From contig JAUMWC010000001.1 in the NCBI GenBank assembly GCA_030529855.1, positions 156,823 through 220,822 on the forward strand: a DNA stretch of 64,000 nt, given 5' to 3'. The notes under the pieces were generated by a model that was not told where the DNA came from, did not search any database, and saw nothing but the letters and a program-made list of their open reading frames with translations. The stretch comes from Gemella sp. GTDB taxonomy: Bacteria > Bacillota > Bacilli > Staphylococcales > Gemellaceae. Shown here piece by piece: positions 57,450 through 62,327 of this stretch. Positions within the stretch are counted from its first letter, which is position 1. Every line of letters begins with the position of its first letter. Position numbers and translations under genes: made by a program.

Positions 57450-58586
57450 ATGATTAAACAATATATAAAAAACAATAAGAAGCTATATATGATAAATAAC
57501 TTGTACTTAGGAATCAATCCTATAACTGGTAAGGAAGTAAGAAAAACTAAGCGTGGTTTTGAAAGTAAAAAAGAAGCTGAAATATACATCGCTAGACTTA
57601 AAGTCGATTTTGAAAAAGGATTACTATTTGTTAGCAATAAAAAACATTCTTTTGAGGATATATATAATTTATGGCTAGAGGAACATAAAAACACCATTAA
57701 AGAAAGTTCATTAAACACCTATTATAAAATATCAAAATTAGTTTTGAAGAAAATAGGAAAAGTAGATATAAAGAAAATGACAAGAATTGAACTTCAAAAA
57801 TTAGTGAATGAATGGAGCACCATCTATAGCAAGAATTATTTATCGGATATAATGAAACTTATTAAGATGGTTTTTGAATATGCTGTTCTTAACGATATAT
57901 TAAATGCTAATCCTATGGATAAAGTGAAAAAGCCTAGAGTTGAAGAAAAAGAAAAAAACGAACTGGAAGAGTATTATACAAAAAGTGAATTATTAGAATT
58001 TCTTGAAATACTAGATAAACACTATAGCCCTACTTTTCAGATGATATTTAGGCTATTAGCTTATACTGGTGCAAGAGCTGGGGAAATATTAGCACTAGAC
58101 TGGAATGACATTGACTTCAATGCTGGAACTTTGAATATTAATAAAACTCTTGCTACTGGTTTAAATAATTCTAAAATCATACAGACACCAAAAACAAACA
58201 GCAGTAAAAGGGTTATTGACCTTGACCCTTCTACCTTACATAAATTAAGAGCTTATAAACTAGCACAGAAGGAATTGCTGTTTAAATTAGGGTTTGTAAA
58301 TAAGGGTTACCTATTTGTAAATACAAAAAATAATCACTTCAACCCAAATAATGTATATGGGAAATTAAAAAGTATTCAGAAAAAACATAAATTAAAAGGA
58401 ATAAGTTGCCACGGCTTTAGGCATACTCATTGTTCTTTATTATTTGAAGCTGGTGCAAGTATACAATCAGTTCAAGTTCGTTTAGGTCACTCCGATATTA
58501 AAACTACTATGAACATCTATAACCACGTAACAGAAAATATAAAACAAAAAACAGCACTTCAATTTGCTGAATATATGAGCATTTAA
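57450..58586 (+). CDS. int: Tyrosine recombinase integrase of the island
   Basis: The 378-residue integrase has an N-terminal AP2-like arm-binding domain (residues 15-65), a SAM-like core-binding domain, and the catalytic domain. Active-site residues are visible: Arg209 in TGARAGE, His321 and Arg324 in CHGFRHTH, His347 in LGHSD, and nucleophile Tyr357 in NIYNHV. It lies at the right end of the island, pointing toward the attR junction, as expected. Confidence 0.94.
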   Translation: MIKQYIKNNKKLYMINNLYLGINPITGKEVRKTKRGFESKKEAEIYIARLKVDFEKGLLFVSNKKHSFEDIYNLWLEEHKNTIKESSLNTYYKISKLVLKKIGKVDIKKMTRIELQKLVNEWSTIYSKNYLSDIMKLIKMVFEYAVLNDILNANPMDKVKKPRVEEKEKNELEEYYTKSELLEFLEILDKHYSPTFQMIFRLLAYTGARAGEILALDWNDIDFNAGTLNINKTLATGLNNSKIIQTPKTNSSKRVIDLDPSTLHKLRAYKLAQKELLFKLGFVNKGYLFVNTKNNHFNPNNVYGKLKSIQKKHKLKGISCHGFRHTHCSLLFEAGASIQSVQVRLGHSDIKTTMNIYNHVTENIKQKTALQFAEYMSI

Positions 58587-58858: not shown

Positions 58859-59293
58859 ATGGCATATTCTAGTAAATTAAGTACTTCTATCCACATCTTA
58901 CTAGCAATCGTAAGATTCGGAGAAGAGGAAAAACAAACATCAACAGCTCTAGCAGATAGTATTAACGTTAATCCTGTAATAGTTAGAAATCTATTACAAA
59001 AATTAAAAACCGCTGGTATAGTTTCTGTAAAAGCAGGTGTAGGTGGTGCTTACCTTGACAAGTCACCTAAAGATTTTACACTATTGGATATTTTCCAAGC
59101 CGTCGAAACAGGAAATAAAGACGTTTTTAAACTACACGAGAATCCTAACCAAAACTGTCCAGTTGGAAAAGTAGTTCACGATGTAGTTATTCCTAATTTT
59201 GATCAAGTAAAAAATGAATTATACCAATCATTAAAAAACATTACTTTCCAAAGTCTTGTCGATGATATGAACGATAAATTAAATAAAAAATAA
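58859..59293 (+). CDS. Rrf2-family transcriptional regulator (YwnA-like)
   Basis: The 144-residue protein has the Rrf2 winged helix (LADSINVNPVIVRNLLQKLKTAGIVSVKAGVGGAYLDKSP, recognition helix near 35-50) and a single cysteine, Cys100, in NQNCPVG, in the region where Rrf2 sensors carry redox or metal ligands. A lone cysteine argues against an iron-sulfur cluster and for thiol sensing. Its likely target is the ywnB-like gene, now about 10 kb away because of the island. AGGAGAGGAG precedes the ATG. Confidence 0.88.
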   Translation: MAYSSKLSTSIHILLAIVRFGEEEKQTSTALADSINVNPVIVRNLLQKLKTAGIVSVKAGVGGAYLDKSPKDFTLLDIFQAVETGNKDVFKLHENPNQNCPVGKVVHDVVIPNFDQVKNELYQSLKNITFQSLVDDMNDKLNKK

Positions 59294-59317
59294 AGTCGTA
59301 CAAATTTGTACGGCTTT
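59292..59317. terminator. Bidirectional terminator between the Rrf2 and acetyltransferase genes
   Basis: AAAGTCGTACAAA and TTTGTACGGCTTT pair with almost no loop, overlapping both stop codons; T-runs on both sides. Confidence 0.85.
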
Positions 59318-59804
59318 ATTTTTTACTTATTATTTTTTCAAATATGAAATCTGCTGTATTTTTATCTCTATCAAAATTAATAACTCTAGAGATTTTATAA
59401 CCACATTTATTTACATAAAATACTGTATTTAGTAACACTTGACTAGGAGTTATCAATGTAAATTTCTTAGCGTTTGAAAAATATCTTTCAACCATATTTA
59501 ATGCTTGCTGACCTATTCCTTCCCCTTGATACTCTACTTTTATAAAAAATATTCCTATATCATAAATATCTTCTTCCTTTTCTTCAAGCATAACTCCACC
59601 TATAAATTCATTTTCATTTTTTATAGATAATATTGTAACCTTAGGGTGATCAAACAATTCACTAGGATCATATTGTTTCTTTTCATTTTCTTGTTCTGTT
59701 AAACCTTCTTCAAAATATTTTGAATGAACATCAAAAGCACGTTCTTCTTCTATTTTAAACAAATCTATCTCCTCTTTTTTCAAAATTTCTAATTTCAAAT
59801 TCAT
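59316..59804 (-). CDS. GNAT-family acetyltransferase under riboswitch-like control
   Basis: The 162-residue product has a C-terminal GNAT core: VEYQGEGIGQQALNMVERYF as the acetyl-CoA loop and a later YVNKCGYKISR. The substrate is unknown. A structured leader with an intrinsic terminator directly precedes its GGAGG site, so expression appears to depend on a transcription decision. That makes the acetyl acceptor, or a related metabolite, a candidate for the sensed compound. Confidence 0.8.
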   Translation of the reverse strand: MNLKLEILKKEEIDLFKIEEERAFDVHSKYFEEGLTEQENEKKQYDPSELFDHPKVTILSIKNENEFIGGVMLEEKEEDIYDIGIFFIKVEYQGEGIGQQALNMVERYFSNAKKFTLITPSQVLLNTVFYVNKCGYKISRVINFDRDKNTADFIFEKIISKK

Positions 59805-59818
59805 TTCTCTACCTCCAT

Positions 59819-59917
59819 AAAAAAAGCCCGGTTATTCATAGTAATCTATGAAATAACCGAGCCTACTCGGCACCTTATCCAACATTTGTGTGCTAGGGCA
59901 CATGTCCTCCGGTGACC
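59819..59917 (-). ncRNA. Riboswitch-like leader: two kissing hairpins plus terminator
   Basis: Read on minus. P1 pairs CACC (59914-59911) with GGTG (59874-59871). Inside it, P2 is ACAT...ATGT with an inner GTGC-CCTA-GCAC hairpin (59905-59882). P3 is CCGAG-TAGG-CTCGG (59870-59857). The P2 loop CCTA is perfectly complementary to the P3 loop TAGG, allowing a kissing interaction. P3's 3' arm is also the base of the following terminator (GCTCGGTTATT / AATAACCGGGC, then seven T, 59862-59819). Stable P3 would open the terminator base, suggesting an ON switch. It somewhat resembles the guanidine-IV (mepA) class as I recall it; class not certain. Confidence 0.75.
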
Positions 59918-59941: not shown

Positions 59942-59970
59942 AGTTTAGTATAATATTAAATTTGTGTCAA
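59942..59970 (-). promoter_or_regulatory. Promoter of the structured leader
   Basis: On minus, TTGACA (59970-59965), 17 bases, TAAACT (59947-59942). Transcription would start about 20 bases before the P1 stem. Confidence 0.6.
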
Positions 59971-60042: not shown

Positions 60043-60402
60043 CTATAAAAACAATAAACTTAATAAGGCTAGTATTGCTAAACCACCTTGTTTTAAGATT
60101 ATCATTTTATCACTTGTTAATCCACCATAGATAGCTACTAAAATAACATAACCTAATAATAATCCTAGCCAAGTTGTACTTGGAGCAACGAATAAAGCTA
60201 CTAAGATTAGTAATCCTATTAACAGATTGTAAACACCTTGATTTTTAAATAGAGTATTTAAAGAATCACGTTGTAATTCTTCTTTACTCATTTTAAATAC
60301 TCTAGCTGTTGAATCAGACGTTGTTGCTATAGTTTCTAAATAGAAAATATAAACAAATTCTAAAGCTACTAATGTTGATAAAATTGTTGTAATAATTGAC
60401 AT
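60043..60402 (-). CDS. DUF1304-family membrane protein
   Basis: The 119-residue protein has four membrane segments and the family features I recall for DUF1304: LEFVYIFYLETIATTS near the start, and LFKNQGVYNLLIGL in the middle. Function unknown. It is last in the MarR-linked operon, 11 bases after the DUF998-like gene. Confidence 0.75.
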   Translation of the reverse strand: MSIITTILSTLVALEFVYIFYLETIATTSDSTARVFKMSKEELQRDSLNTLFKNQGVYNLLIGLLILVALFVAPSTTWLGLLLGYVILVAIYGGLTSDKMIILKQGGLAILALLSLLFL

Positions 60403-60413
60403 AAAAATTTCTC

Positions 60414-61073
60414 CTATTTATTTCTTTTTGTTAAAAATGTAATTCCCGTAATAAATTGCCAGGCCGTTATCGGATATACAGTAAGTCGTTCATAGATTGC
60501 CATAACATTTTCTAAATTAGCAGTTATAGCATTTTGTAAAAAGTATACTGCCGAAAATCCTACAATAGCTAATATAATACTTATACTTCTATATCCTAAT
60601 CTTTTTTCAGGTAAGAAAATTCCTGTTAAAAGAAGCGTTGCATTTCCCATTAAAAATGACAGTCTCGCTCCAAGTCCGTGCAAGTCATCTTGTCCTGGCA
60701 CTCCACCTTGATATAAACCTACAAGTAAACTTCCTACTCCAAAACTTAAAACAATTAATAATAAAATATAAGCTCTAGCTTTACTAACTTTTTTCATTTT
60801 AGGGAAAATTAATAGTAAATAACTAGCTACAAATCCTAGAGCAGTTACGATAAATCCAATATTCATTACAATGGCCCACGATGAAAAGTTTTCTGGTACC
60901 CCTTCTACTACCTGACCATTGTAAACCCCTAATGCACTAATAAATTGTCTTGCATAAACATAATCTAGTGGATATCCTGTACCAAGGGCAGCGATAAATT
61001 CTGTTAGTAAATAAAAACTAGCATTTAATATAAAACCTATAGCTCCATATCTTGCAATTTTAGAACTACTCAT
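60414..61073 (-). CDS. DUF998-like multi-span membrane protein
   Basis: A 219-residue protein with about six or seven hydrophobic spans and polar loop YPLDYVYARQFISALGVYNG after the first span, in the style of DUF998 proteins. I start at ATG 61073, overlapping the stop of the DJ-1-like gene, rather than an in-frame GTG nine bases earlier. Function unknown; membership in a thiol-stress-type operon is the only clue. Confidence 0.65.
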   Translation of the reverse strand: MSSSKIARYGAIGFILNASFYLLTEFIAALGTGYPLDYVYARQFISALGVYNGQVVEGVPENFSSWAIVMNIGFIVTALGFVASYLLLIFPKMKKVSKARAYILLLIVLSFGVGSLLVGLYQGGVPGQDDLHGLGARLSFLMGNATLLLTGIFLPEKRLGYRSISIILAIVGFSAVYFLQNAITANLENVMAIYERLTVYPITAWQFITGITFLTKRNK

Positions 61074-61761
61074 TATCTGCACCGCCTTGCAATACTCTTA
61101 CTGCTAATTTTCCTAACTCTCTAGCTGATTGCGGGTTTTGTCCAGTAAGTAGTCTTCCATCTAGAATTACATGAGGAGTGAATGCTTTTACAGTTTCAAC
61201 ATTTGCTCCTTTATTTCTAAGCTCATCTTCCGTTAGGAAAGGAACCATCTCTAAAGTTCCGTTAAGTGTTTCTTCTTCATTTGTAAATCCAGTAACTTTT
61301 TTCCCATCTATTAAATTATTTCCATCTTTATCTTTGATTGGTAATAATCCTGCTACACCATGACAAACCGCAGAGATATAACCACCGTTATCGTAAATAT
61401 CACTAGCAATTTTTCCAATCTCATCAGCATTTGGGAAATCCCACATAGTTCCATGACCACCTGTATAATAAATAATATTATAGTCTTCTGGATTAATTTT
61501 GTCACTTGTTAAAGTGTGAGCTAAAGCTTTATTTCTAAAATTCTCATCTGTATAATATTTCATATCAGTCTCATCAATCATAGCTAATGAATGTGGATCT
61601 AAGGGTATATATCCACCATTAGGGCTTACGAAATCTGCTTCTATTCCTGCTTTTACTAATTCATCATAAAAGTGTGTTAATTCCGCTAACCACAATCCTG
61701 TCAATCTATTTGATGATTCATACTTTTCTATATTAGTTACTACTATCAATGCTTTTTTCAT
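61066..61761 (-). CDS. DJ-1/PfpI-family protein (Hsp31-like type 1 glutamine amidotransferase fold)
   Basis: The 231-residue product, started at ATG 61761 behind ATAGGAGAAAAA, has the nucleophile elbow ISAVCHGVAGLL with Cys133 and His134 and the YYTGGHGTMWDFP segment. DJ-1/Hsp31 proteins act as chaperones, glyoxalase III or deglycases in the cytoplasm. It is first in an operon divergent from an OhrR-like regulator, pointing to reactive-carbonyl or thiol-stress defence. Confidence 0.85.
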   Translation of the reverse strand: MKKALIVVTNIEKYESSNRLTGLWLAELTHFYDELVKAGIEADFVSPNGGYIPLDPHSLAMIDETDMKYYTDENFRNKALAHTLTSDKINPEDYNIIYYTGGHGTMWDFPNADEIGKIASDIYDNGGYISAVCHGVAGLLPIKDKDGNNLIDGKKVTGFTNEEETLNGTLEMVPFLTEDELRNKGANVETVKAFTPHVILDGRLLTGQNPQSARELGKLAVRVLQGGADNE

Positions 61762-61783
61762 TTTTTCTCCTATCTCGATATTC

Positions 61784-61818
61784 AATCGCATACGATTAAT
61801 TATTTTAATTTAAATTAA
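61784..61818. promoter_or_regulatory. Palindromes in the MarR/DJ-1 divergent intergenic region
   Basis: AATCGCATACGATT (61784-61797) and the perfect palindrome TTAATTTAAATTAA (61805-61818) lie between the divergent starts. Either could be the operator of the MarR-type regulator. Confidence 0.5.
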
Positions 61819-61883
61819 TATCATTGTCAAGAAAAAGAATATGTGCTACTATTGTAACTAGAAAATTTGAAAGGTAGTACAAA

Positions 61884-62327
61884 ATGAAAGAACACGACTT
61901 ATCACAACAAGTTTGTTACTCTTTTTATCAAGTCAATAAGTTATTCAACCAATTCTATATGAAAAATTTACAAGAATTTGACTTGACTTATACCCAGTAT
62001 TTAAGTCTAGTTGTTCTTTGGAAATCTTCTCCCCTTAGCCTTAATAAACTAGGAAACGAATTGGATCTTGCTAGTAATACACTTACTCCACTACTTAAGA
62101 GATTAGAAGAAAAAGAATATATAAAGAGATACAAACCAGAAAATGACAAAAGACAACTATACGTTGAACTAACAGAAAAAGGTAAAAACTTAGAACATAT
62201 ATTGGAAAATAAACTTCTATCTTGCTTCAGACAGATTGATAATCTTAACTACGAAACTTCTAAAAATTTTGTCGATTTAAATAATGAACTAGCCAATAAT
62301 ATAAAAAAATATTTAGACAAAAAATAA
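61884..62327 (+). CDS. OhrR-like MarR-family redox regulator
   Basis: The 147-residue protein has Cys11 in QQVCYSFYQVNK, matching the peroxide-sensing cysteine of one-cysteine OhrR/SarZ proteins. The winged helix contains LNKLGNELDLASNTLTPLLKRLEEKEYIKR. It most likely represses the divergent DJ-1/DUF998/DUF1304 operon until its cysteine is oxidised or alkylated. A second cysteine (LLSCFRQ) lies near residue 115. Confidence 0.85.
   Translation: MKEHDLSQQVCYSFYQVNKLFNQFYMKNLQEFDLTYTQYLSLVVLWKSSPLSLNKLGNELDLASNTLTPLLKRLEEKEYIKRYKPENDKRQLYVELTEKGKNLEHILENKLLSCFRQIDNLNYETSKNFVDLNNELANNIKKYLDKK

Follow-up and report, generated by a model that had tools for sequence, protein, structure and literature searches.

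Which kind of RNA precedes the GNAT acetyltransferase gene on the minus strand of this 64,000-nucleotide stretch of Gemella DNA (the window), and does it belong to a known class of riboswitch? Positions 59917 to 59819 of the minus strand encode a kissing-hairpin RNA leader directly 5' of the gene, which the earlier note had taken for a riboswitch candidate with a built-in terminator, recalling the guanidine-IV class. We read the leader as a metabolite-type riboswitch that activates the GNAT gene by blocking termination and whose family is most likely the Gd4v motif or a close sister of it, a reading to which we give a probability of roughly 0.64. The features of the locus are as follows.

59942..59970, minus strand: promoter-like site TTGACA-17-TAAACT, agreeing with the consensus at 10 of 12 positions in a scan; shuffled sequence yields 2.1 comparable sites per region, and it is not evidence of function.
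59871..59914, minus strand: enclosing stem P0, CACC/GGUG (59914-59911 with 59874-59871), from covariation and the minimum-free-energy fold.
59881..59906, minus strand: basal stem P1, GACA/UGUU (59906-59903 with 59884-59881), from folds.
59889..59902, minus strand: hairpin Pa, UGUGC-CCUA-GCACA, with kissing loop 1 (CCUA) at 59897-59894, from covariation.
59885..59888, minus strand: CAAA bulge, the site of an extra hairpin in most relatives, from alignments.
59875..59880, minus strand: joining segment GGAUAA, which is GGAUAA or GGAAAA in most homologues, from alignments.
59857..59870, minus strand: hairpin P2, CCGAG-UAGG-CUCGG, the putative antiterminator, with kissing loop 2 (UAGG) at 59865-59862, from covariation.
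59819..59864, minus strand: intrinsic terminator with 5' arm 59864-59846, 3' arm 59841-59824 and U tract 59825-59819, from folds.
59812..59816, minus strand: Shine-Dalgarno sequence GGAGG, from the sequence.
59316..59804, minus strand: GNAT N-acetyltransferase of 162 amino acids with its ATG at 59804 and a QGEGIG acetyl-CoA motif (Pfam PF00583, E = 1.6e-7).

Read 5' to 3', the element consists of GGUCACCGGAGGACAUGUGCCCUAGCACACAAAUGUUGGAUAAGGUGCCGAGUAGGCUCGG, the 61-nt aptamer, followed by UUAUUUCAUAGAUUACUAUGAAUAACCGGGCUUUUUUU, GGAGG, and the ATG of the GNAT gene. The loops of Pa and P2 are exact complements, as the earlier note had stated, and its further claim that an intrinsic terminator just 5' of the ribosome site shares the second hairpin's 3' arm is borne out by the terminator sequence, AGGCUCGGUUAUUUCAUAG...CUAUGAAUAACCGGGCU7, which takes in P2's entire 3' arm plus three loop-2 bases out of four and whose U tract ends at 59819, 2 nt 5' of GGAGG. 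The stems P0 and P1 had been absent from that description. The minimum-free-energy fold of the isolated aptamer (ViennaRNA) is exactly P0, P1, Pa, and P2, and the folding stability of the element corresponds to a z score of -4.6 against 200 shuffles.

Relatives of the element were found through covariance models. Rfam 15 gave no match to the window at the gathering score, and relaxed thresholds (up to E = 10) returned only unrelated subthreshold matches. Exact-pattern scans for the CCUA/UAGG loop pair in 398 genomes of the phylum and in viral contigs returned only chance matches besides the window, and homology searches based on the GNAT brought in no leaders, the enzymes being too diverged. 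A covariance model built from the window sequence alone (R1) matched one distant relative, L065, located 5' of a MATE gene. A pattern derived from the window and L065, run once on a genome collection, gave 10 matches of which 3 were real members, including L071, 5' of a GNAT gene in a goat-rumen Bacilli metagenome-assembled genome, and L067, 5' of a MATE gene. A second model (R2), built from four homologues with the window left out, found the window element with 43.9 bits (E = 1.4e-8) as the sole place matched in the 64 kb, which as sequence evidence is independent proof of homology. Searches of two bacterial orders with R2 enlarged the set to about 40 leader RNAs in the Bacillota, a sample of few orders, and BLAST added a leader from Selenomonas ruminantium plasmid pSRC2, where it precedes a remnant of a MATE gene. 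Model matches L188 and L191 were dropped as weak and due to chance, and L206 was dropped as degenerate. The covariance search proposed in the earlier note succeeded in its custom-model part, which yielded homologues and covariation, whereas its Rfam part was uninformative as to class because Rfam also recognizes none of the 10 relatives searched.

Pair statistics were calculated from 33 distinct RNAs (L208 was excluded) with 2,000 label shuffles, which ignore relatedness, so that the resulting fractions are not strict probabilities. Covarying pairs were found in P0 (CAYC/GRUG), in the five pairs of Pa, and in P2 pairs 2 and 3, and none or almost none of the 2,000 shuffles matched them. P0 is paired in 33/33 RNAs at three of its four positions, with pair 3 changing from C-G to U-A (0/2,000 shuffles equal). 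Each Pa pair is formed in 31 to 33 of the 33 RNAs, compared to shuffle means of 15 to 28, and one Pa position shows four pair types across the homologues. Pairs 1 to 3 of P2 are formed in 33/33 RNAs, with pair 2 changing from A-U to G-C and pair 3 from G-C to A-U. The four pair types in Pa and the A-U/G-C swaps in P2 would be hard to explain without real pairing. P1 has counterparts in the homologues, read from their sequences as GGC/GCC, GGU/ACC, GGUA/UACC, and AACA/UGUU. In most members an additional hairpin lies between GGGG and GGCCGCC, making a three-way junction where the window has only the CAAA bulge.

The kissing loops vary in matched sets, namely CGCA/UGCG, CGUA/UGAG, CGUA/UGCG, and CCUA/UAGG, the last of which was found only in the window among the approximately 40 leaders. 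Between CGCA/UGCG and CCUA/UAGG, two pairs are altered on both sides; the common CGUA/UGAG set contains one G-A mismatch, making the contact imperfect by simple pairing. This G opposite A occurs in about half of the family and might be part of a ligand pocket. Covariation and conserved loop-loop complementarity in homologous leaders, which the earlier note had named as tests of its proposal, are thus both present. The fold z score, the match by the window-free model, the roughly 40 homologous leaders preceding few kinds of genes, and the covarying stems and loop contact confirm that the CCUA/UAGG leader is a real conserved RNA element, beyond chance.

It is highly improbable that the element has no small-molecule ligand and is instead an attenuator responding to a protein or RNA, or an ordinary terminator with loops that match by accident. 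Such a reading would accord with the short open reading frames that adjoin the RNA in two relatives. However, most members have no leader open reading frame, chance is excluded by the covariation, and highly conserved unpaired bases together with a tertiary contact across distant lineages and unrelated genes are typical of metabolite riboswitches.

For a metabolite-type riboswitch, the arrangement of P2 and the terminator suggests how switching could occur. In ViennaRNA folds of growing transcripts, the pairing probability of P2 is approximately 0.8 to 0.87 at most lengths from 62 to 86 nt and falls from 0.87 at nucleotide 86 to 0.003 at nucleotide 89, as the 3' arm of the terminator emerges. 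In 22/33 RNAs, the terminator incorporates four or all five bases of the P2 3' arm, usually with part of loop 2, and several RNAs outside this count scored low since the script chose an early U run. An exceptional platform is seen at L183 (1501-1560), where the terminator stem, as read from the sequence, appears to enclose P2 by using the 3' strand of P1/P0. By these folds the aptamer and the terminator compete directly and are mutually exclusive, so the element would be an ON switch if the ligand stabilizes the aptamer, and the two-state design with ON logic foreseen in the earlier note is supported by this competition in the window fold and the 22/33 RNAs. In the proposed mechanism, P0, P1, and Pa would form first behind the RNA polymerase leaving the promoter, followed by P2. 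Ligand bound while nucleotides ~61 to 88 are made would allow the CCUA/UAGG contact to keep P2 closed, making its 3' arm unavailable to the terminator and permitting read-through into the acetyltransferase gene. Without ligand, transcription would stop, as the far more stable terminator would capture most of loop 2 together with the 3' arm of P2.

The genes downstream of the RNA give an indication of what is sensed. Directly 3' of the RNA at the approximately 40 loci are GNAT genes (20, including the window), MATE genes (~10), and ABC exporter genes (2 loci), with the downstream genes of the remaining loci truncated or without assignment. MATE calls rest on Pfam/NCBIfam for two loci (L178 and L205) and on sequence resemblance for the others, and most gene names in the homologues were read from the sequence without individual searches. 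No SugE exporter or transaminase was recognized among these loci. By homology, the window RNA belongs to one family with the leaders of the GNAT, MATE, and ABC exporter genes, and the kinds of genes controlled point to a ligand that would be a small toxic amine or guanidine-like cation, exported or N-acetylated. The earlier note had regarded control of an acetyltransferase as unusual; it is not, since both guanidine-IV and Gd4v have been reported to control GNAT genes (PMC9788692, PMC10416765), and 20 of the loci here link the RNA to such a gene. One of the ABC exporter loci carries two RNAs in tandem, and an open reading frame with the sequence ..VWGRSPP.. sits between the copies, 5' of the exporter (L196, 1501-1758). 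A short open reading frame also adjoins the RNA at L187; the peptides at L196 and L187 contain VWGRSPP or IWGRSPP, and the arrangement resembles a riboswitch paired with a leader peptide.

The window GNAT shares 21 to 29% identity with seven of the other GNATs linked to the RNA and is not grouped with them in a tree, leaving a shared clade unsupported. Its structure model (pLDDT 82) has as best Foldseek matches SpeG, PaiA (1tiq), and the L. curiae GNAT (8osp), so that the predicted fold is closest to that of polyamine acetyltransferases, although the window GNAT is only 15 to 20% identical to PaiA, SpeG, and 8osp. GNAT profile matches to designed kelch proteins (SAKe) were set aside as spurious.

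Gd4v, published in 2022, is a guanidine-IV variant and an orphan riboswitch candidate. It is described as a pair of hairpins linked through a pseudoknot, carries a Rho-independent terminator, and presumably functions as an ON switch (PMC9788692). Its genes encode transaminases in more than 50% of cases, followed by GNAT and MATE proteins, GNAT being the second commonest enzyme gene; it is gut enriched, and the published alignment holds 395 sequences (PMC9788692). The family described here likewise has two hairpins, a pseudoknot between their loops that is flanked by conserved bases, and a Rho-independent terminator as the expression platform, and it shares with Gd4v the presumed ON direction, GNAT and MATE genes, a conserved G-U in loop 2, a construct length of ~95 nt, and gut and rumen sources. 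At the position that would correspond to Gd4v D1 ("not G"), U or C occurs in 33/33 distinct RNAs, on a register inferred from mutant numbering. A top stem, GGUUAUU..AAUAACC, is conserved in the homologues, and both it and P2 are candidates for one Gd4v criterion. In contrast to Gd4v, no transaminase occurs among the approximately 40 loci, drawn from few orders, and the family has P0 and a three-way-junction subtype that the Gd4v text does not mention. From this comparison with the published text, the family most likely lies in or next to Gd4v.

The same differences could be taken to indicate an undescribed class, sister to guanidine-IV and Gd4v, whose distinct ligand, perhaps a toxic amine or a compound resembling an antibiotic, would turn on genes for GNATs and for MATE and ABC exporters. 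We consider this unlikely, though the likeliest of the alternatives. SugE and transaminase genes are both missing, the terminator competes with P2 directly, unlike in the published guanidine-IV model (PMC7736828), and the three-way junction of many members goes unmentioned in the text of the Gd4v and guanidine-IV papers; the ABC exporter loci, including the one with tandem RNAs and an intervening open reading frame, and the lack of any Rfam family matching the 10 relatives would also suit a separate class. However, the lineage sampling is narrow, and the overall plan, the GNAT and MATE genes, the gut and rumen sources, and the ON terminator fit the Gd4v text.

Guanidine-IV itself (mepA, or GGAM-1) works as an ON switch; its loops kiss, with loop 2 placed inside the terminator stem, and it mostly controls sugE, along with MATE and GNAT genes (PMC7736828, PMC12186494). 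One GNAT controlled by it, the L. curiae enzyme 8osp, acetylates canavanine (PMC10416765). The class binds guanidine in the 50 to 300 µM range. The resemblance pointed out in the earlier note is supported, in that kissing loops, a terminator-based ON switch, and MATE and GNAT targets, all reported for guanidine-IV (PMC7736828, PMC10416765, PMC12186494), recur here, and the predicted fold of the window GNAT resembles that of 8osp. It is nevertheless improbable that the leader is a true guanidine-IV RNA binding guanidine and controlling a canavanine- or polyamine-like acetyltransferase. No SugE gene occurs among the loci; loop 2 lies in a separate P2 hairpin that is destroyed by the terminator (in the window and 22/33 RNAs, L183 excepted), unlike the model with the terminator stem in the binding structure; and the nucleotide corresponding to the essential G72 is either U or C in every member, on the inferred register. 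True guanidine-IV RNAs were sought 5' of SMR genes for direct comparison, and none was obtained.

The guanidine-I, -II, and -III classes are represented in Rfam, and their models failed to match the window at the gathering score and also with the cutoff relaxed to E = 10. Guanidine-II also has two hairpins with kissing loops, but its conserved ACG trimers (PMC7736828) are missing from the loops here. The yjdF and other MATE-linked classes were dropped, having no Rfam match.

Among 13 genomes compared, close relatives included, the RNA is present only in the window's own, and no close homologue of the window GNAT was found in 60 relatives, which suggests that the RNA and the GNAT gene were gained horizontally or were differentially lost in relatives. 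Approximately 1.2 kb from the RNA, a tyrosine-recombinase-like open reading frame (57450-58586) follows two helix-turn-helix-like regulator frames, and this region may form one end of an integrated element. A search of the window for an 18-bp direct repeat of the sequence following the recombinase frame found none. Adjoining the GNAT gene is an Rrf2 regulator (58859-59293) weakly similar to the hypochlorite sensor HypR. The genes at 60043-62327, for an OhrR-like MarR regulator and DJ-1/PfpI, DUF998, and DUF1304 proteins, resemble an oxidant-response operon.

The family to which this leader belongs is spread over many gut and rumen bacteria, where it controls genes for export or acetylation. 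With about 40 aligned examples, a defined structure, and a switching window at nucleotides 61 to 88, it offers clean constructs for ligand screening. The window RNA may be a good test case, being compact, with a 61-nt aptamer and a fully Watson-Crick loop pair, and having sampled relatives without the RNA. Were the family to prove distinct from Gd4v, it would represent a new riboswitch class.
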